Shown here: positions 30,563 through 52,957 of the stretch, in pieces | How positions within the stretch are numbered: the first letter of the stretch is position 1 | Layout: each line of letters begins with the position of its first letter | From: Arthrobacter sp. CDRTa11 | Lineage (GTDB): Bacteria > Actinomycetota > Actinomycetes > Actinomycetales > Micrococcaceae | DNA: 64,000 nucleotides | Assembly (NCBI RefSeq): GCF_026427775.1 | Contig: NZ_CP044532.1 | Span: forward strand, 1,922,001-1,986,000 | Reading direction: 5' to 3' | The notes under the pieces: model-generated | Seen by the model: only the letters and a program-made list of their open reading frames with translations | Told to the model about the DNA's origin: nothing | Database searches by the model: none | Position numbers and translations under genes: made by a program

Positions 30563-30913
30563 TTAGTTCCAGAGCGTGGCAATTGCCACGTTGAGGAGGG
30601 CAAGGCCACCTACGCTGTGAGCGAGTCCCTTGCTGATGGGTTCACCCTTCCTGTACTTACGGCTGCCGATAAAGGCCAACACCGCAACGGCAAGGCCGAT
30701 AGCCAACTTGATCCCCAGTTTCATGTAGTTGGCGTCCATGTCCAGGGCCGGGATCAGTCCCATCATCACCACGCCCGTGATGACCTGGGTTGCCGCGCCG
30801 TCGAACTGGCGTGGGTGGACCGTGGGCTTCTTCATGTTGCCGATCCAGATCCCCACCACCATGGCAGCGCCGACAATGTGGAGGAAGACCATGACGTTAT
30901 ACAGGATGTCCAT
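30563..30913 (-). CDS. Four-helix membrane protein with a BlaI-type operator
   Basis: A 116-residue integral membrane protein, MDILYNVMVFLHIVGAAMVVG onward, with four predicted helices (about residues 5-25, 41-61, 65-84 and 96-114). The first helix, with a His in FLHIVGA, recalls small haem or copper-linked membrane proteins, but I cannot name a family. TAGACT lies seven bases before the ATG. Immediately upstream is a near-perfect copy of the operator found between blaI and cydA, so it is probably controlled with cytochrome bd. Confidence 0.75.
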   Translation of the reverse strand: MDILYNVMVFLHIVGAAMVVGIWIGNMKKPTVHPRQFDGAATQVITGVVMMGLIPALDMDANYMKLGIKLAIGLAVAVLAFIGSRKYRKGEPISKGLAHSVGGLALLNVAIATLWN

Positions 30914-30920
30914 GGACCTC

Positions 30921-30951
30921 AGTCTAGCCAGACGTTCTACGTCATGTAGTA
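30921..30951 (-). promoter_or_regulatory. Promoter with a remote TTCTAC-N5-GTAGAA-type operator
   Basis: TTCTAC-GTCAT-GTAGTA at 30935-30951 matches 11 of the 12 arm bases of the three operators at the cyd locus. On the minus strand the -10 box TAGACT is at 30926-30921, so the operator covers the expected -35 position at 30944-30949. Binding should block transcription of the gene starting at 30913. Confidence 0.65.
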
Positions 30952-44564: not shown

Positions 44565-45578
44565 TCAGCCCAGGAGGCCGGGAACGATCAGAAGAGCGGT
44601 AGGCAGGGCGAGCAGCAGCACGCAGCCGGCCAGCACGGCCCCCTGGGCGGCCGCGGGCAGCTCTGCCTGCGGTGACAGGAGGCGGCTGACGCGGGAGACC
44701 GTGGTGCGGGCAGAATCCGAGCCCGCAAGTCCCGGCGTCTCCAGCCCGGCCAGGCCGGGGTTGGCGTCCGCTGGACGTGTGCCTGCAGATACACCGGCGT
44801 CGGCATTGCTGCCTGCACTGCCGCTGGCGCTGCCACTCGCGACGATCGCGATGGCCTTGATCAGGGTTGCCTTGCTTTCTGTTTTGAGGGCAACGTCGTC
44901 CGCAAGCATTTCGATGAGCGAGTTCACTGACTCCTGGGCCAGCCGGGTGGTGGGAAGCCAGGGCAGTGCCTGGCGCCAGGCCGCGAACGCCCACAGCAGG
45001 AGGTGATGGCGCTGGCTCAGGTGTGCGTTCTCATGGATCAGGACTGCCCGCAGCTCGTCGGGTTCCAGGGCTGCCATGAGGCCGTCCGAAAGCACGGTGA
45101 CCGAACGGGCCCCGCCAGGAAGGCAGTAGGCCACCGGCGAGTCATGGCTGATGACCACCGTCCCGGCACCTTCAGCGGAGGGGGAGGCCAGCAGCGCCAG
45201 GAGCTCGCGGTGCCGGCGGCGCTGCCGCTCGATCCTGTAGTAGGTGAGCAGCAGGGTAAAAACCAGGTGGGCCGTCAGCAGCGCCGCGGCGGACAGGGCA
45301 AAGATATGCCAGAAGCCCAGGGCCGTGGTGGGGGCATTGAACAGCACCATTTCGGCGAGCGCGCGCAGGCCCGCGATCAGGTTGTCGCCAATGGGTTCCA
45401 GCCCGTACACCAGCATGGCGCCAATCATGGACAGGCCACCGGCCAGTGCGATGGCCTGCCAGAGAAGCATCGCCGTAAAAGGGGAGCGCGCCGGCCATTG
45501 GGCACGCGAGAGGAGGATAGGCACCGGCCACGCCAGGACTATCGCAAGGACCGCCAGCAGGTATGAGGTCCAGAACAT
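44565..45578 (-). CDS. M56 family membrane metallopeptidase (BlaR1-like)
   Basis: A 337-residue membrane protease, the usual partner of BlaI repressors. There are three N-terminal helices (about residues 4-23, 34-59 and 90-113), a cytosolic zinc protease domain with HENAH (His182, Glu183, His186) and YCLPGG before it, and a final helix (about 312-335). The large penicillin-sensor domain of true BlaR1 is absent; instead a Gly/Ser/Ala-rich linker precedes the last helix. The ATG lies six bases after the blaI stop, so they form an operon. It is expected to cleave the BlaI-like repressor when triggered. Confidence 0.88.
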   Translation of the reverse strand: MFWTSYLLAVLAIVLAWPVPILLSRAQWPARSPFTAMLLWQAIALAGGLSMIGAMLVYGLEPIGDNLIAGLRALAEMVLFNAPTTALGFWHIFALSAAALLTAHLVFTLLLTYYRIERQRRRHRELLALLASPSAEGAGTVVISHDSPVAYCLPGGARSVTVLSDGLMAALEPDELRAVLIHENAHLSQRHHLLLWAFAAWRQALPWLPTTRLAQESVNSLIEMLADDVALKTESKATLIKAIAIVASGSASGSAGSNADAGVSAGTRPADANPGLAGLETPGLAGSDSARTTVSRVSRLLSPQAELPAAAQGAVLAGCVLLLALPTALLIVPGLLG

Positions 45579-45584
45579 GGTCCG

Positions 45585-45971
45585 CTAGATGTGGCCAAGC
45601 AGTTTGCGCAGGGTTTCGGCTTCATTTTCCGATACGGATCCAATAAAACGTGCCAGCACGGCTTCACGGTCGGGCGCTGAGCCCAGCACCTCGTGCATGA
45701 GCTCGGCGGTGTGGTCTTCCCGGCTGGAGATCGCCTGGTAGCGGTGCGGCCGGGTGCCGCGTTCGCGCTCGACGAGGCCCTTCTTTTCCAGCCGCGAAAG
45801 CACGGTCAGTACCGTGGTTACGGCCAGTTCCTTGCCTTCATGACCTGCTGAGCCACCCTGGGCCTCGGTGCTGTGCGCCAGCCTGTCACGCAATGTGTTG
45901 GCGGTGGCTGCTCCCTGGCCCGCCCAGAGCAGGTCCATCACTGCCCGTTCAAGTTCACCAAGACTGGCCAT
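45585..45971 (-). CDS. blaI: BlaI/MecI/CopY family transcriptional repressor
   Basis: A 128-residue winged-helix repressor (MASLGELERAVMDLLWAGQG, then TVLTVLSRLEKKGLVERERG with the recognition helix). The C-terminal part is the dimerisation helix where M56 proteases cut. The start with AAGGA eight bases upstream is chosen over ATGs three and nine codons earlier. The gene is divergent from cydABDC, and the shared 266-bp region holds three identical palindromes, so it very likely represses itself, the M56 gene and cyd. The name blaI denotes the family, not proven beta-lactam control. Confidence 0.88.
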   Translation of the reverse strand: MASLGELERAVMDLLWAGQGAATANTLRDRLAHSTEAQGGSAGHEGKELAVTTVLTVLSRLEKKGLVERERGTRPHRYQAISSREDHTAELMHEVLGSAPDREAVLARFIGSVSENEAETLRKLLGHI

Positions 45972-46076
45972 TCCATACATCCTTAAGATTCCCCGCACCG
46001 CCTGGCGCCAGGCCAGCGATGACTTCTAACGAGCGCTGCAACTACAGAAACAAATTTACCCCGTTTCCGCCGCAGT

Positions 46077-46207
46077 TTCTACGTCAGGTAGAACACACAG
46101 CGGCTCCGGGGCCTTGTAGGGACCTGCCCAGGGTGGAAAAGTTGGTTTACAGCGCCGGGCGCAGTGTTCTACACTCGGTAGAAGTCAAAGTTCTACGGAT
46201 CGTAGAA
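46077..46207. promoter_or_regulatory. Three TTCTAC-N5-GTAGAA operators and the cydA promoter
   Basis: Perfect copies lie at 46077-46093, 46167-46183 and 46191-46207. A cydA promoter can be drawn with TTTACA at 46146-46151 and TACACT at 46170-46175 (18-bp spacer); the second operator covers this -10, and the third lies just downstream. The first copy lies 106 bp upstream of blaI. The palindromes fit dimeric BlaI-type binding. Confidence 0.75.
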
Positions 46208-46237
46208 AAGTTCGCCCCGCCAACAGTAGGGACTGCC

Positions 46238-47842
46238 TTGGACGCCTTGGAAATCGCACGCTGGCAATTCGGCATCACCACCGTCTACCACTTCATGATG
46301 GTGCCGCTCACCATCGGGCTTGGCTTGGTGGTGGCAGTCATCCAAACGGCCTGGCACCGCACCGGTAAGCCCGAATACCTGCGGATGACCAAGTTCTGGG
46401 GAAAGCTGTTCCTCATCAACTTCATCATGGGTGTGGCCACCGGGATCGTGCAGGAATTCCAGTTCGGCATGGCGTGGAGTGAGTACAGCCGGTTCGTGGG
46501 CGACGTGTTTGGGGCGCCCCTGGCACTGGAGGCACTGCTGGCGTTCTTCGTCGAGTCCACGTTCCTGGGGCTGTGGATCTTCGGCTGGAAGCAGTTGAAG
46601 CCCGGCATCCACTTGGCCTGCCTGTGGATTGCCGTGGTGGGTTCGGCCTTCTCCGCCTATTTCATCATCGTGGCGAACAGCTGGATGCAGCACCCGGTTG
46701 GCGTGGAGATGGTCAACGGCAGGCCTGTTATGACCGACGCATGGGCGGTCTTCACCAACAACACCGCCCTGGTTGCCGTACCGCACACACTTTTTGGTGC
46801 CCTGGCCGTGGCCGGCGGCTTCCTGCTGGGCATAGCCTGGTACCACCTGTGGCGCCGGCGGCGCGACGGCGTTGACACCATCGGCGCCGACGGCAAGGTC
46901 ATCCCCGGTGAAGCAGCAGACATCCCCGGCCGTGACCGGGCCGACCACAATGTCTGGATCCGCTCGCTGCGCATCGGCGCCGTCGTCGCCATGATTTCCT
47001 TTGCCGGGACCGCCATCACCGGCGACCTGCAGGGCAAACTGATGTTTGAGCAGCAGCCCATGAAGATGGCGGCCGCGGAGGCTGCCTGCCACGACGGCAC
47101 CGGCTTCTCCGTCCTCAGTGTGGGCAACGTCGGATCGAAGAACTGCGATGACATCGTGGCCCTGATCGAGGTTCCCGGGATCCTCTCCTTCCTGGCCAAG
47201 GGCGACTTCACCACGGAGGTCAAGGGTGTCAACAGCCTCCTGGACCAGTACAAGGCCGATTACGGAACAAACCTTCCGGACAACCCGATCTATGGCGAGC
47301 GCGCCGGCCAGGAAATCGAATATGTTCCGGTCATGGAGGTCACCTACTGGGGCTTCCGGATGATGATCGGATTCGGCGGTCTCGCGGCCATGGCTGCGCT
47401 GGTAGCGCTGTGGGTGACGCGCAAAGGCACTGTTCCGGAATCGCGCTGGCTCATGCGGCTTGCAGTGTTCGGCATCCTGGCGCCGTTCGGAGCCAACGCT
47501 GCAGGCTGGATCTTTACCGAAATGGGCCGGCAACCGTTTGTGGTGGCCCCCAACCCGGACCTGAACGGCATCGACCAGGTGTTTATGTTTACTGCGGCCG
47601 CTGTGTCACCGGGGGTGTCGGCCGGGGAACTCCTGACGTCGTTGGTGGTGCTCACAGCCATCTACGCGGTCCTGCTGGTGGTGGAAGTGAAGCTGCTGGT
47701 CAAGTACATCCGCGGTGGCGTGGTTTCCGCGATGCCGGAACTGGCCCATGCGCCGGTGGACGAAAACGAGGACGCTACCCCGGGGCCGGACGGACCGGGC
47801 AGCGGAAAGCACGCCGACGACGTCCTGGCATTCGCCTACTAA
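46238..47842 (+). CDS. cydA: Cytochrome bd ubiquinol/menaquinol oxidase subunit I
   Basis: A 534-residue membrane subunit I of cytochrome bd, a high-affinity terminal oxidase. The TTG start is chosen because MDALEIARWQFGITTVYHFMM is the conserved N-terminus, with haem-ligand His18. GRQPFVV near residue 430 is the family hallmark. The Q-loop region (about 250-340) contains extra residues typical of the longer actinobacterial forms. AGGGA lies just upstream. The frame is open earlier, but that sequence is the operator region. It is first in a cydA-cydB-cydDC operon. Confidence 0.94.
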   Translation: MDALEIARWQFGITTVYHFMMVPLTIGLGLVVAVIQTAWHRTGKPEYLRMTKFWGKLFLINFIMGVATGIVQEFQFGMAWSEYSRFVGDVFGAPLALEALLAFFVESTFLGLWIFGWKQLKPGIHLACLWIAVVGSAFSAYFIIVANSWMQHPVGVEMVNGRPVMTDAWAVFTNNTALVAVPHTLFGALAVAGGFLLGIAWYHLWRRRRDGVDTIGADGKVIPGEAADIPGRDRADHNVWIRSLRIGAVVAMISFAGTAITGDLQGKLMFEQQPMKMAAAEAACHDGTGFSVLSVGNVGSKNCDDIVALIEVPGILSFLAKGDFTTEVKGVNSLLDQYKADYGTNLPDNPIYGERAGQEIEYVPVMEVTYWGFRMMIGFGGLAAMAALVALWVTRKGTVPESRWLMRLAVFGILAPFGANAAGWIFTEMGRQPFVVAPNPDLNGIDQVFMFTAAAVSPGVSAGELLTSLVVLTAIYAVLLVVEVKLLVKYIRGGVVSAMPELAHAPVDENEDATPGPDGPGSGKHADDVLAFAY

Positions 47843-47864: not shown

Positions 47865-48914
47865 ATGGAACTGCTGCCAACTCTCTGGTTCATCATCATT
47901 GCGGTGCTGTGGACCGGATACCTCTTCCTTGAAGGCTTTGACCTTGGCGTGGGAATGCTGATGAAGCTTTTTGCCCGCAACAACACCGAGCGCCGGGTGC
48001 TGCTGAACACCATTGGGCCTGTATGGGACGGCAACGAAGTCTGGCTGATCACCGCAGGCGCCGCAACCTTTGCCGCCTTCCCGCTCTGGTATGCCTCGCT
48101 CTTCTCCGCCCTGTACCTCCCGCTGCTGGTGGTGCTGGTGGCGCTCATCTTCCGTGCTGTGGCCTTCGAGTACCGGGGGAAGGTGGACAACGACACCTGG
48201 CGCGCCCGCTGGGACTGGGCCATCGCACTGGGTTCCTTACTGGCTGCCTTTGGCGTCGGCGCCGCGTTGGCGCTCACCACCACCGGTCTTCCGCTCAACG
48301 CCAACGGTGACCGCGAGGGCGGCCCGTTCGCCTGGTTCAGCTGGTACGCCGTGCTCGGTGGCCTGGCCGTGGTGTGCTTCTCCCTGCTGCACGCCCTGGC
48401 CTTCCTGGCACTGAAGACCGACGGCGACGTGCGGCACCGCGCGCGCCGCTGGTTCATCCGGCTGCTTCCGGTGCTGCTGCTCCCGTTGGCGGGCTGGGCC
48501 GTCAGCATCCAGGTCGTGGACGGGAAGATGTGGACCTGGGCCGCGGTCCTCCTTGCGGTTGTGGCAGCGGCCGCGGCCTGGATGATGGCCCGCAAGGGGA
48601 GTGAAGGCAGGGCTTTTGCAGCGCTTGGAGCTTTCCTGGTGCTGGGCAGCGCGTCCATCTTCGCCGCCGTTTTCCCGGTGGTGCTGCCGTCCACCCTCAA
48701 CCCTGCGTTTGATCTGACCATCTCCAACGCGTCCTCCTCGGACTACACGCTCGGGCTGATGAGCGTTGTGGCCGCCGTCGGCCTGCCGCTGGTCATTGCA
48801 TACCAGGCCTGGACCTACTGGGTCTTCCGGCGGCGCGTCAGTGCCCAGCACATCCCGGAGGCGCACAGCTTCCTGCCGGCCATTGCGGCCAAGGCCTTCA
48901 CCAACAAGGGCTGA
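47865..48914 (+). CDS. cydB: Cytochrome bd oxidase subunit II
   Basis: A 349-residue integral membrane subunit II of cytochrome bd. LWFIIIAVLWTGYLFLEGFDLGVGML at the N-terminus, GPVWDGNEVWLITAGAATFAAFP near residue 45, and the C-terminal YQAWTYWVFRRRV are typical. About nine hydrophobic helices are visible. GAGG lies 10 bases upstream. Its stop is separated by one base from the GTG start of the fused exporter gene. Confidence 0.95.
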   Translation: MELLPTLWFIIIAVLWTGYLFLEGFDLGVGMLMKLFARNNTERRVLLNTIGPVWDGNEVWLITAGAATFAAFPLWYASLFSALYLPLLVVLVALIFRAVAFEYRGKVDNDTWRARWDWAIALGSLLAAFGVGAALALTTTGLPLNANGDREGGPFAWFSWYAVLGGLAVVCFSLLHALAFLALKTDGDVRHRARRWFIRLLPVLLLPLAGWAVSIQVVDGKMWTWAAVLLAVVAAAAAWMMARKGSEGRAFAALGAFLVLGSASIFAAVFPVVLPSTLNPAFDLTISNASSSDYTLGLMSVVAAVGLPLVIAYQAWTYWVFRRRVSAQHIPEAHSFLPAIAAKAFTNKG

Positions 48915-48915
48915 C

Positions 48916-51900
48916 GTGCGTCCGGACTTCCCGGCCGGACCGGCCACCCGCTCCGCCCTGTACTGGCTGGGACTGCTTGCCGCCCTGAAGGCGCTGTCCC
49001 TGGTCCTGATGGGCCAGGCCGTTGCCTCCATGCTGGCCGGGCTGGCCACCGCTGATCCTGGCTGGCAGGATCAGCTCCCCTGGGGGCTGGCCGGGGTTGT
49101 CCTGAGGTCCGGCACAGTCTGGGCCCAGGGAATCGCTGCCCGCCGTGCGGCCCTGGGCATCAAGGAGGAGCTGCGCTCCGAGCTGCTGAACCGAGCCCTC
49201 CGTAACGGTGCGCGGAGCACAGGCCCGGCCGACGGCGGACTCGCTGTCCTGGCCACCCGCGGGCTGGACGCCCTGGACAGCTACTACACCCAGTTCCTCC
49301 CGGCACTGGTGAACTGCGCTGCAATTCCGTTGCTTCTCGGCGCCCGGATTCTGTTCGCGGATTGGGTCAGTGCCGTGGTCATTGTCCTCACGGTTCCGCT
49401 GGTCCCCCTCTTTATGGTGCTGATCGGCCGCTACACCGAGGACAATGTCAGGGAGGCCCAGGCCGCCCTGGCCCGGCTGTCCGCACACATGCTCGAACTG
49501 GCGAAGGGACTGCCGGTTCTCGTGGGCCTCGGCCGGGCCACCGCCCAGCGCAGGGCCCTGGAGGAGATCTCGGAGGAGTACCGTGCCAAGACCATGGGAA
49601 CGCTGCGGACAGCCTTCCTGTCGGCACTGGCACTGGAACTGATAGCCACCATCTCCGTTGCGGTGGTGGCCGTGTTCATCGGTGTGCGCCTGGTACACGG
49701 GGAGATGGCCCTTGAGGCCGGACTGCTGGCCCTGATCCTGGCCCCGGACTGCTACCTGCCGCTGCGTGAACTGGGCACAGCCCACCACGCCAGCGACGAC
49801 GGCCGTGCGGCGCTCGCGGAGACGAGGGCGGTCACCGGGGCGCCAGAGCCGCGGCCGCTGCCCGCCCATGCGCCTGTCGGCGATTCTGCCGACAATCTCA
49901 CCGTCACCAACCTCACTGTCACCTATGAGGGACGGTCCGTTCCCGCCGTCGGGCCCGTGAGCTTCACCGCCCCCCAAGGCCGCATCACTGCCCTGGACGG
50001 TCCCAGCGGGACGGGCAAGAGCACCATCCTCGGTGTACTGGCAGGGACGGTCGGCGACGGTGCAGGCACCCGCGTCACCGGCAGTATCACCCACCTCAAC
50101 CGGGACAGCATTGCCTGGGTTCCGCAGCACCCGGTAATGGTGGCGGAGACCGTCCTGGCGGAAGTCCTGCTGTACCTCACCCTGGGTGAGGCCGGCCGTG
50201 CCGGCTCCACCGCTGAGACTGCTGCGATGGAATGCCTGGCTGCGGCGGCAGCAGGCCATCTCGCCGGAAAGCATCCCTCGGAACTGAGTCCCGGCGAGTT
50301 GCGGCGGGTGGCACTGGCGCGCGGCCTGGCCCGCCTTCGCGCCGGTGCATCCGTTCTCCTGCTCGACGAACCCACGGCCCACCTGGACAGGGCGTCCGCA
50401 GCGCGTGTACAGGAGGCAGTCCTCAGCCTCCGCGGACGCGTCACCGTCATCCTTGTGGCCCACGACCAGCAGACCCGGGAGCTCGCCGACCACCTGGTTC
50501 CGGTCTCCGCGGCAGCTGGCGCAACGGAATCCGCAGCGCCGGCTTTCGCGGACACTGTTGCACAGGGCATCGGGGCGGGAGCCCCAGTACCCCCTTCTCC
50601 GGCCAGTCCTCCGGCTAGTCCTCCGGCTAGTCCGCCCGCTGGCCTGCCGGCACGCCTGCTGGCTCTGCCAGGACGGACAGATCGGTTGCCGGGGGAGCGG
50701 CAGTCCTCCTCAAGCCGGCTACTGATGGGGCTGCTGCAGCCTGTGGCCGGACTGTTTTCCGGCGCTGCAGTGGTGGGGACTCTCGCCGCGATCTTTGCCG
50801 TGGCGCTCTCCGGGCTGTCCGGGTGGCTCATCATCAGGGCAAGTGAGCAGCCGCCCATCCTGTATCTCCTCACAGCCATTGTCGGCGTGCGGTTCTTCGG
50901 GATCGGGCGCGCCGTGCTCCGCTACTGGGAACGGCTCCTGCTCCACGAAGCCGTGTTCGCCGCCCTGACCAGGCTGCGCGGCCGGCTGTGGGAATCCCTG
51001 AGCCGGAAGGCGCTCTCGCTCCGCCGCCTGCTGCAGGGTGGCAGCGTCCTCAGCACGGTGATTGACGACGTCGACAATGTCCGCGACCTGCTCCCGCGCG
51101 TGGTGCTTCCTCCGCTGACGGCGCTCGCTGTCGGTGTGGGCAGCCTGGTGGCCTCCGGACTCCTTGTGCCGGCAGCCTTTTGGGCCGCTGCAGCCGGGAC
51201 GGGCATAAGCCTCCTGGTGGCCCCCGCAGCCGCCCTGTGGGGGGACCGGAAATCCGCCAGCGCCGAACAGGGCCTGCGCCGCGGTGTGCTCCGCCGCACT
51301 GCGGCGGCCCTGGATGCCAGGGCAGAACTCCAAGTGAATGGAGTAGCCGCGGCGGTCCTTGCCGAACTTTCCATCCAGGACCGTGCGGCCACGCGTGCGT
51401 CCCAGCGGTCGGCCTGGGCCGAAGGAATTGGCCAGGCCATCACCGTGGCGGCCTGTGGCATTGCTGCCCTTGCCAGCGCTGTCATGGCAGCACCGCAGGT
51501 GCTGGCGGGAACCTTGCCTCCGGCCACCGCTGCAGTCCTGGTCTTGCTGCAGCTGGCCCTTGTGGAGCCTTACGCAGCTGTCACGACGGCGGTGCGCCAG
51601 TTCCCTGCGCTCCGGACGGTCCTGCGCCGGATAGGCCGGTCCGGGGCGCTGGAGGGCGCACCGGGGGACAGCGGCAGCGGTGTCCCGAAAGATGGTGTCC
51701 CGAAAGACGCGGAAGATGACGGTCGCGCGGCCGTCCTGGAGCGCGCCGGCGGGGAGGCAGGGATTGAGCTTGAGGACGTTGGGGCAGCCTGGCCGGGAGC
51801 GAGCCCGGTGTTCTCCGGGGTGTCCGCCACCGCCGGACCTGGCCGCTGGCTGACCCTGACAGGCCCGTCAGGTGCCGGCAAATCGACTCTGCTTTCAGTC

Positions 51901-52431
51901 CTGTTGGGTTTCCTGCCGGCCGCCCACGGCCGTGTCCGGGTTACGGGGAGGGCCGCCTGGTGCCCGCAGGAAGCACACTTGTTCGACTCCACGCTGCGCG
52001 GGAACCTGCTGCTGGGGCGGCCGTCCACCGGCGGTCCCGCGGACAGCAGCGCGGACGGCGCCGCGATGGCGGCTGCCCTTTCGGCCGTTGGCCTCAGCGG
52101 CCTGGTGTCCCGCCTTCCCGCCGGGCTCGACACCCGGATCGGTCCTGGAGGTTCCTTCCTCAGCGGTGGTGAACGCCAGCGGCTGGCCGTCGCCCGGACG
52201 CTTATGACCGGGGCGGAGGTGATCCTGCTCGATGAACCGACGGCCCACCTGGACGCCGAGGCAGGGCGCGCCATGCTGACGGACCTGAGGGCCGGATTGA
52301 AGGACCGCACAGTTGTCCTGGTCACCCACAACCCTGCGGACATCGATCCGGAGGACGCCTTGCTGGACCTGGGAGGAGTCCGGTCCGCAGTCACCCATTT
52401 GGCTGGGCATGGCGTGGCCGTTTCACCCTAA
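48916..52431 (+). CDS. cydDC: Fused CydD-CydC thiol reductant ABC exporter
   Basis: A 1,171-residue protein with two complete ABC transporter halves, exporting cysteine/glutathione-type reductants needed to assemble cytochrome bd. Half one: a six-helix TMD (about residues 10-280) and an ATPase with GPSGTGKS (363), LSPGELRR and LLLDEPTAHLD. Half two: a TMD (about 605-880) and an ATPase with GPSGAGKST (982), LSGGERQRLAVA and ILLDEPTAHLDAE. Most bacteria encode CydD and CydC separately; here a Pro/Ser-rich linker with a 12-bp DNA repeat joins them. The GTG start follows cydB by one base. Confidence 0.92.
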   Translation: MRPDFPAGPATRSALYWLGLLAALKALSLVLMGQAVASMLAGLATADPGWQDQLPWGLAGVVLRSGTVWAQGIAARRAALGIKEELRSELLNRALRNGARSTGPADGGLAVLATRGLDALDSYYTQFLPALVNCAAIPLLLGARILFADWVSAVVIVLTVPLVPLFMVLIGRYTEDNVREAQAALARLSAHMLELAKGLPVLVGLGRATAQRRALEEISEEYRAKTMGTLRTAFLSALALELIATISVAVVAVFIGVRLVHGEMALEAGLLALILAPDCYLPLRELGTAHHASDDGRAALAETRAVTGAPEPRPLPAHAPVGDSADNLTVTNLTVTYEGRSVPAVGPVSFTAPQGRITALDGPSGTGKSTILGVLAGTVGDGAGTRVTGSITHLNRDSIAWVPQHPVMVAETVLAEVLLYLTLGEAGRAGSTAETAAMECLAAAAAGHLAGKHPSELSPGELRRVALARGLARLRAGASVLLLDEPTAHLDRASAARVQEAVLSLRGRVTVILVAHDQQTRELADHLVPVSAAAGATESAAPAFADTVAQGIGAGAPVPPSPASPPASPPASPPAGLPARLLALPGRTDRLPGERQSSSSRLLMGLLQPVAGLFSGAAVVGTLAAIFAVALSGLSGWLIIRASEQPPILYLLTAIVGVRFFGIGRAVLRYWERLLLHEAVFAALTRLRGRLWESLSRKALSLRRLLQGGSVLSTVIDDVDNVRDLLPRVVLPPLTALAVGVGSLVASGLLVPAAFWAAAAGTGISLLVAPAAALWGDRKSASAEQGLRRGVLRRTAAALDARAELQVNGVAAAVLAELSIQDRAATRASQRSAWAEGIGQAITVAACGIAALASAVMAAPQVLAGTLPPATAAVLVLLQLALVEPYAAVTTAVRQFPALRTVLRRIGRSGALEGAPGDSGSGVPKDGVPKDAEDDGRAAVLERAGGEAGIELEDVGAAWPGASPVFSGVSATAGPGRWLTLTGPSGAGKSTLLSVLLGFLPAAHGRVRVTGRAAWCPQEAHLFDSTLRGNLLLGRPSTGGPADSSADGAAMAAALSAVGLSGLVSRLPAGLDTRIGPGGSFLSGGERQRLAVARTLMTGAEVILLDEPTAHLDAEAGRAMLTDLRAGLKDRTVVLVTHNPADIDPEDALLDLGGVRSAVTHLAGHGVAVSP
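50605..50636 (+). repeat. 12-bp tandem repeat in the CydD-CydC linker
   Basis: AGTCCTCCGGCT occurs twice with a partial third unit, encoding Ser-Pro-Pro-Ala repeats in the joint between the two transporter halves. Confidence 0.75.
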
Positions 52432-52492
52432 GAAAAGTATTCGAAACCCGGTGCCGGTCTTTTCCGGTACCCCACAGGTACGGTGGCTGTTC

Positions 52493-52957
52493 ATGGACGC
52501 AACTCCGCCCCCAGGGGGCAAACTTGGCTACGACGAGTGCTGGGACCTGCTGGCAGCAGCAGTGATTGGCAGGCTCGCCCTGATTGTGGATGATCACCCC
52601 GAGATCTTTCCCGTGAACTACGTCCTGGAGCGTCGGAGTATTGTCTTCCGAACGGCCGGTGGCACCAAACTGTGGGGAGCCTACGCGTCCAGGCCCGCCG
52701 CCTTGGAGATCGACGGTTACGACCCGCGTCAGGAGGAGGCCTGGAGCGTCGTGGCGAGGGGAGAAACGGAAATAATCAGCAGCGACGCCGAAAAAGCCGC
52801 CGTGGACGCACTCCAGCTTGAACCGTGGCAGCCAGGCGCTAAGGACCACTACGTCCGGCTTACGCCCCGCGCGCTGACGGGCCGCCGTTTCAAGGTAAGC
52901 AAGCCGGATCTGTGGAACACCCGCCTCGCCGACGAGCGCCGCTCGTCCTTCGAATAG
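52493..52957 (+). CDS. Pyridoxamine 5'-phosphate oxidase family (flavin) protein
   Basis: A 154-residue FMN-binding split-barrel protein of the PNPOx-like superfamily. GRLALIVDDHPEIFPVNYVLERRSIVFRT near residue 25-50 is the usual barrel core, and SVVARGETEII follows near residue 85. Members include F420- or flavin-dependent reductases and nitroreductase-like proteins. The substrate is unknown. TACGGT lies eight bases before the ATG at 52493. It starts 61 bp after cydDC but has its own promoter-like sequence. Confidence 0.82.
   Translation: MDATPPPGGKLGYDECWDLLAAAVIGRLALIVDDHPEIFPVNYVLERRSIVFRTAGGTKLWGAYASRPAALEIDGYDPRQEEAWSVVARGETEIISSDAEKAAVDALQLEPWQPGAKDHYVRLTPRALTGRRFKVSKPDLWNTRLADERRSSFE

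Follow-up and report, generated by a model that had tools for sequence, protein, structure and literature searches.

In the BlaR1-BlaI and MecR1-MecI systems of Staphylococcus aureus, a winged-helix repressor gene lies beside that of a membrane metalloprotease, operators lie at the pair's own promoter, and the targets are beta-lactamase and PBP2a. The S. aureus operators are TACA-type boxes, unlike the TTCTAC-N5-GTAGAA palindrome considered here. A second described pair is BlaI-BlaR of Mycobacterium tuberculosis (Rv1846c-Rv1845c), for which Sala 2009 reportedly found five BlaI loci, rv1456c among them and cyd not; we take rv1456c to be the counterpart of ctaA beside suf. Actinobacterial cydAB is also controlled by Rex, and Rex, CRP and RegX3, which are of the redox, cAMP or phosphate type, work without a partner protease. 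Excerpts of two papers describe control of actinobacterial cydAB by CRP (PMC7739888) and by RegX3 (PMC7924339), so that transcriptional control of cytochrome bd is common to those regulators and the one proposed below. Excerpts of two others state that M. tuberculosis BlaI binds and represses Rv1303, which is co-transcribed with ATP synthase genes (PMC12565901), and that BlaI is said to bind cytochrome bd promoters, with Sala 2009 cited for the point (PMC5473688). The latter excerpt also describes mycobacterial BlaR as having no beta-lactam sensor domain, and the way in which beta-lactams act on the system as unknown. BlaI had thus already been tied to energy genes, with ATP synthase and cyd targets reported in M. 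tuberculosis. How does the Arthrobacter locus compare?

The window, a stretch of 64 kb of Arthrobacter sp. CDRTa11 DNA, holds a blaI-M56 pair divergent from cydA with three operators in between (Table 1), an arrangement that differs from that of M. tuberculosis. The predicted repressor matches Pfam Penicillinase_R at 5e-21 (75.6 bits versus a cut-off of 22.6, residues 5-126 of 129), and its sole PDB sequence match at E 0.001 is 2g9w (3e-15), presumably Rv1846c, the M. tuberculosis BlaI. These searches used a range to 45974, one residue longer than the listed gene (129 versus 128); an in-frame ATG also lies at 45980, and the ATG shared by relatives is the one in the table. A PF03965 profile search of the genome gave one other weak match, in a protein that reads as MarR-like. 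BlaI scores 25.2 bits against the NCBIfam model CopY_TcrY, below the equivalog cut-off of 121.95. It thus resembles the copper repressor CopY in a weak match to the same model, and in the copper genes found beside sites in other families, but its neighbour here is a protease and not a copper ATPase. On the other side of the operators, the cydABDC operon of the original prediction holds for cydA and cydB, whereas cydD and cydC make up one fused reading frame, whose true start is probably near 48911. A Pyridox_ox_2 (PPOX-like) protein, 52313-52957, follows cydDC, and a gene of the same Pfam family (L002:4556-4990) adjoins a perfect operator elsewhere in the genome.

Table 1. Genes, predicted promoter and operator sites; coordinates are those of the window, and cells are empty for sites elsewhere in the genome
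Feature	Position	Strand	Remarks
M56-type membrane metalloprotease (BlaR1-like)	44565..45578	-	337 aa; without C-terminal sensor domain
blaI	45585..45971	-	BlaI/Penicillinase_R-type winged-helix repressor, 128 aa; ATG common to relatives
Operator O1 (TTCTACGTCAGGTAGAA)	46077..46093	.	Perfect; blaI side; copy kept by blaI where cydA is not adjacent
Predicted cydA promoter TTTACA-18-TACACT	46146..46175	+	Sigma-70-like, 9/12 matches
Operator O2 (TTCTACACTCGGTAGAA)	46167..46183	.	Perfect; over predicted cydA -10 TACACT, 46170-46175
Operator O3 (TTCTACGGATCGTAGAA)	46191..46207	.	Perfect; 24 nt downstream of O2
cydA, cytochrome bd subunit I	46238..47842	+	TTG start 46238; Pfam Cyt_bd_oxida_I 1.9e-151
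cydB, cytochrome bd subunit II	47865..48914	+	Pfam Cyt_bd_oxida_II 4.3e-104
cydDC fused ABC exporter frame	48766..52431	+	1221 aa; two ABC_membrane and two ABC_tran stretches
One-mismatch operator (TTCTACGTCATGTAGTA)	30935..30951	.	Before 116-aa membrane protein gene (30563-30913, -)
Perfect site			Before hmp; Rrf2/NsrR-like gene upstream
Perfect site			Before hemQ-hemH-hemC
Perfect site			Before phosphoglycerate-mutase-like gene, then tlpA-ccdA-resB
Perfect site			Before 126-aa protein gene
Perfect site			Before PPOX gene facing 603-aa gene
One-mismatch site			sucC-sucD
One-mismatch site			atpI (Cg1360-family)-atpB
One-mismatch site			ctaE/qcrCAB
One-mismatch site			Between sufR-sufB and ABC-ABC-ctaA
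One-mismatch site			Downstream of mca-like gene

The three perfect palindromes lie exactly where the original prediction had placed them, and it was equally right that one of them covers the predicted cydA -10, an element of the only sigma-70-like site in 45900-46300 (shuffle mean 0.2). The arms of the three are identical and the 5-base spacers differ, reading GTCAG, ACTCG and GGATC in coordinate order. The window has no further perfect copy; with up to two mismatches it has four matches, against a shuffled mean of 0.30, and none of 100 shuffles got to four. Half-site letters were also permuted: the palindrome occurs 136 times in the 46 closest named loci (among the best 80; 570 kb), and each of 59 other orderings occurs 0 times. 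Spacers were compared in 46 rows, the window plus 45 of those 46 loci (L148, whose cydA lies elsewhere, was excluded). The O2 spacer, which holds the -10, is the least variable, with 5 distinct spacers versus 17 and 26, and a palindrome is centred 104-124 nt upstream of blaI. Because the rows were picked for exactly three perfect sites, the invariance of the arms in them is by construction, and the unconditioned figure is the count over the best 80 named loci of the scan, from Arthrobacter, Pseudarthrobacter, Paenarthrobacter, Sinomonas and others. In 74 of these 80, blaI is divergent from cydA, with three perfect palindromes in 59 and two in 15, and the surrounding DNA (mostly 12 kb each) has no further perfect copy. 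The alignment across Arthrobacter relatives that had been proposed thus finds the palindromes conserved. In Arthrobacter sp. AL12 (L145), about 3.6 kb of inserted DNA separates one copy on the blaI side from the two of the cydA pair.

Is cydA the only gene addressed in this way? It had been predicted that cydABDC is the only adjacent target; the adjacency is right, but cyd is not the only target, as other sites in the genome lie at respiratory promoters. The 5.16-Mb genome has eight perfect sites, against 0 for a reversed-pattern control, and eight sites with one mismatch. Fourteen of the 16 recur at the same promoters in relatives, the targets being blaI-M56/cydAB-cydDC, hemQ-hemH, qcrCAB, ABC-ctaA/sufR-sufB, tlpA-ccdA-resB, atpI-atpB, sucC, hmp and four that are poorly known. 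Targets were named by Pfam/NCBIfam, with hemC, sucD, sufR, ctaC and mca named by reading or tblastn only. Two one-mismatch sites have no counterpart among the fetched sites and look like chance: L006 precedes what reads as a GMC-type oxidoreductase gene, and L011 falls within an ORF. All four genomes examined have a two-mismatch copy roughly 1 kb ahead of ctaD, presumably in front of ctaC; for the second ctaD copies in three of these there is no site within two mismatches, and ctaB has none within three. Inexact matches do not rise above the reversed control, with 91 sites versus 249 at up to two mismatches in this genome, and 13 versus 16, 15 versus 12, 17 versus 14 and 16 versus 10 at up to one mismatch in four relatives, so that their number carries no weight and their position alone speaks for them.

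All 12 congeners have six to eight perfect sites each, with 0-2 for the reversed control; six genomes of other families have no perfect site. In three congeners (G002, G034 and G092) every perfect site outside blaI-cydA, 14 of 14, is at an ortholog of one of this genome's targets, namely hemQ, hmp, tlpA-ccdA-resB, the 126-aa gene and the PPOX gene. So are 17 of their 22 one-mismatch sites (5/5, 6/7 and 6/10), which fall at the same six places: atpI-atpB, sucC, qcrC, ABC-ctaA/sufR, the 116-aa gene and the place downstream of mca. In G106, of another genus, six of ten one-mismatch sites (nine fetched, the tenth within L019) are at atp, tlpA-ccdA, ctaA/suf, ctaE-qcr, sucC and the third cydA site. 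Across four genomes of other genera of the family (G049, G106, G120 and G078), 18 of 24 perfect sites outside blaI-cydA are at the same or kindred genes. The hemQ site is found in all four, qcrC/ctaE in G049 and G120, and hmp in G120; G078 has perfect sites at ABC-ctaA/suf, ctaB, ctaC-ctaD, sdhC, SURF1, CtaG-CopD and tlpA. The remaining six are L101, L104, L109, L112 and L114, without a nameable target, and one G078 site that was not fetched. Among 20 perfect-site loci fetched from family f6, nine lie near a tlpA-ccdA, PCu(A)C, CtaG, CopC or hmp-like piece (PCu(A)C by reading in L052, L054 and L060, and tested in L045 only), and for the other 11 no neighbour could be assigned to respiration or to copper handling. 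The palindrome and blaI-M56 of family f14 keep different company, namely a copper ATPase, PepSY or FecCD genes.

We consider it highly probable, on this comparison of genomes, that BlaI represses its own blaI-M56 operon together with a respiration-wide regulon through TTCTAC-N5-GTAGAA, with relief probably coming from the protease. A respiration-wide repressor is indicated because the operator lies before genes of both oxidase branches (bc1, heme a synthase and the weak ctaD site) and before heme, Fe-S, cytochrome c, sucC and ATP synthase genes, and the same breadth speaks against the terminal oxidase switch of the original prediction. From the sites, their conservation, the identities of the targets and the coupling of BlaI to its operator, we infer the following course of binding, repression, proteolysis and signal. 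BlaI, dimeric by family, would bind at about a dozen promoters, its own included. At the two cydA operators it would occlude the -10 and the start region, and the placement of both operators over these elements would exclude RNA polymerase. The neighbouring membrane protease, a BlaR1 core with no penicillin-binding sensor, would presumably inactivate BlaI according to membrane, respiratory or heme state. Loss of BlaI would then raise jointly cytochrome bd, heme synthesis and insertion, bc1, cytochrome c biogenesis, Fe-S assembly, succinyl-CoA synthetase and ATP synthase. Since the bd and bc1/aa3 branches, cofactors and ATP synthase would all belong to the regulon, release would lift the whole respiratory capacity and not swap one oxidase for another. 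Joint derepression of both oxidase branches is unusual, and this counts against the respiration-wide reading.

The proteolytic step is plausible, since the HExxH (gluzincin residues H182, E183 and H186) and the downstream Glu (E223) are unchanged in all 17 aligned relatives, and S. aureus BlaR1 entries make up the four best PDB matches of the predicted model. The BlaR1 transmembrane and protease fold is present; by profile, Pfam Peptidase_M56 gives 24.7 bits, under its cut-off of 31, and M48 gives 40.8, over its cut-off of 20.3. What might the protease sense? Of the signals that might be proposed, cofactor (heme or copper) or respiratory state fits the targets best. A special form of the respiration-wide reading is that the protease responds to heme or copper supply, with the regulon restoring cofactors while the copper-free bd oxidase takes over. 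The hemQ-hemH, ctaA, suf and tlpA-ccdA-resB targets make or insert heme, Fe-S or copper, and PCu(A)C, CtaG, CopD and CopC genes lie at sites in other genera and families, as does the blaI-M56-copper ATPase cluster of f14. An excerpt of a TnSeq study states that M. tuberculosis blaR is needed on heme or hemoglobin iron (PMC7058343). Cys152 of the protease (window 45123-45125), part of an AYCxP motif and 30 residues ahead of HExxH, is kept by all 17 relatives and is a candidate redox- or metal-responsive residue; it may have a structural role instead. Against such sensing, ATP synthase and sucC are not cofactor genes and no sensor site is identified, so that we hold this form to be possible but on the doubtful side.

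Might the pair sense beta-lactam damage to the cell wall and couple it to energy supply, as in Mycobacterium? The repressor family and the protease core are the same, and excerpts report as much for M. tuberculosis BlaI/BlaR (PMC5473688, PMC12565901). The protease itself argues otherwise: its chain ends at residue 337 with just two helices (285-301 and 309-331) past the protease part, and the extracellular penicillin-binding sensor domain is absent. In this it differs from S. aureus BlaR1, its best structural match, and agrees with what the first of these excerpts says of mycobacterial BlaR. Nor do the targets fit well, as those that can be named are mostly respiratory, where the S. aureus targets are beta-lactamase and PBP2a. 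The sole class A beta-lactamase over cut-off (PF13354, at 1214221) lies over 128 kb away from any site with at most one mismatch, and no operator within two mismatches lies in the 1.5 kb on either side of it; this negative covers class A (PF13354) only. Control of beta-lactamase or PBP2a is an S. aureus-type function and not a mark of the family, and it was not seen at the PF13354 gene, the only gene type checked. With M. tuberculosis the locus shares an operator at the Cg1360-family ATP-synthase-associated gene, which we take to be the counterpart of Rv1303. It differs in having sites also at heme synthesis, bc1, cytochrome c biogenesis, sucC and hmp genes and, so far as found, none at a class A beta-lactamase. 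We therefore regard a beta-lactam responder as improbable.

A local oxidase switch, in which BlaI would control blaI-M56 and cydABDC only and the other palindromes would be due to chance or belong to another system, is very unlikely. It draws on the blaI-cydA region having the densest cluster, with one site each at the other places, and on the many perfect sites of f6 without a nameable neighbour. It draws also on the company that the pair keeps: of the 30 BlaI loci that score best in the order, 28 have BlaI-M56 next to cydA, and so have nine of 20 loci chosen elsewhere in the class, their half-sites being of TTCTAC or TACTAC type. (Among those 20, the BlaI genes of f31 and f21 have half-sites at most, and those of f33 none.) We set this switch aside since congeners carry the operator at the same promoters outside cyd, as the 14 perfect sites above attest, and reordered half-sites are absent. 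The palindromes also stay with each gene when the two part. In the six of the best 80 loci that have no adjacent cydA, exactly one palindrome lies 68-128 nt before blaI. Three of the six have cydA elsewhere, with its own palindrome pair 23-25 nt apart in front; in the genomes of the other three, and in G078, cydA was not found, and blaI still has its palindrome. Loci in which BlaI adjoins cydA with no perfect palindrome in between, those of G017 and G093 and seven of f7 and f13, count against the respiration-wide reading.

Is BlaI the protein that reads the palindromes? Among 149 sampled genomes of the order, a perfect palindrome is present in 26 of 64 with a BlaI-like match and in 0 of 85 without (Fisher 8e-12, uncorrected for kinship). 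Where the BlaI match exceeds 100 bits, 22 of 23 genomes have one, the exception being G017. Operator type also follows the protein. Of 87 BlaI loci, a set from which the 46 closest named loci were excluded and in which a few may be the same genome twice (e.g. L018 and L182), the upstream half-sites are mainly of TTCTAC type in 63, mainly of TACTAC type in 18, and of neither or in equal numbers in six. Residue 56 of the query (55 from the listed ATG) falls in the presumed recognition helix; 62 of the 63 TTCTAC-type loci have L or H there, and all 18 of the TACTAC-type have M (uncorrected for kinship); this sets the operator here apart from that of BlaI genes with a helix Met56. Position 63 tracks operator type nearly as well (E in 59/63 versus 0/18), and position 60 less well (D in 3/63 versus 15/18). 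Since the palindromes stay with blaI and with cydA separately, are confined to BlaI-bearing genomes in the sample and covary with the helix, BlaI very probably reads them and represses cydA. The original prediction of BlaI control of cyd through the palindromes is thus supported in part: it very probably holds as to repressor and target, and finds no support where it makes the pair a switch for terminal oxidase use. That a different regulator reads the palindromes, or that they act as RNA hairpins or terminators, is very unlikely, for although 46207-46191 was called terminator-like (7-bp stem, 3-base loop, T-rich tail), the call is near shuffle level (1 versus a mean of 0.5) and a terminator is rejected on that ground, site centres lie 16-202 nt before start codons, spacers vary, and the palindrome's link to BlaI is as just given.

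What evolutionary course could lead to a respiration-wide BlaI regulon? A BlaI-like match is present in 133 of 197 sampled genomes of the class. It is conceivable, though we lean slightly the other way, that BlaI-M56 is the ancestral actinobacterial controller of the respiratory chain and heme supply, sensing membrane or cofactor state with no domain for binding a drug, and with mycobacterial beta-lactamase control a later addition and the ATP synthase and cyd targets a remnant. The literature matches listed (where "BlaI" also matches "blaIMP" and surnames) include no paper on BlaI and respiration in Arthrobacter, nor on a heme, bc1 or cytochrome c BlaI regulon; those listed also gave no sign of this operator, of blaI and cydA arranged in this way, of so broad a regulon or of the covariation with the helix. 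Joint control of the respiratory chain, heme supply and ATP synthase by one repressor would give a hint of what the protease senses, and the mycobacterial sensing question becomes testable in harmless soil bacteria with a clean operator and a cydA reporter. If the respiration-wide reading is true, actinobacteria gain a proteolysis-linked master control of oxidative phosphorylation.

Several features of individual target regions deserve mention. Upstream of hmp (L001:4950-5067), besides the BlaI-type palindrome, there is an AT-rich inverted repeat, TGTATT-CGA-AATACA, near the NsrR-like gene, so that hmp may have two controllers. At L008:5001-5075, downstream of a one-mismatch site, several more GTAGAA half-sites stand in tandem (ACAGTAGAA repeats). 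The 116-aa membrane protein of the window has no Pfam or NCBIfam match and adjoins sucB-like and lpd-like genes; its operator is kept in two genera, being perfect in G106 (genus g11) and with one mismatch in the three congeners. The 126-aa protein beside a perfect operator (L005:4526-4906) is likewise a membrane protein, without a Pfam match, and occurs in several genera of family f1. In family f6, a 215-aa membrane protein without a Pfam match (L045:3083-3730) adjoins a perfect operator and a PCu(A)C chaperone gene, and similar pairs of membrane protein and PCu(A)C are read in other f6 loci.
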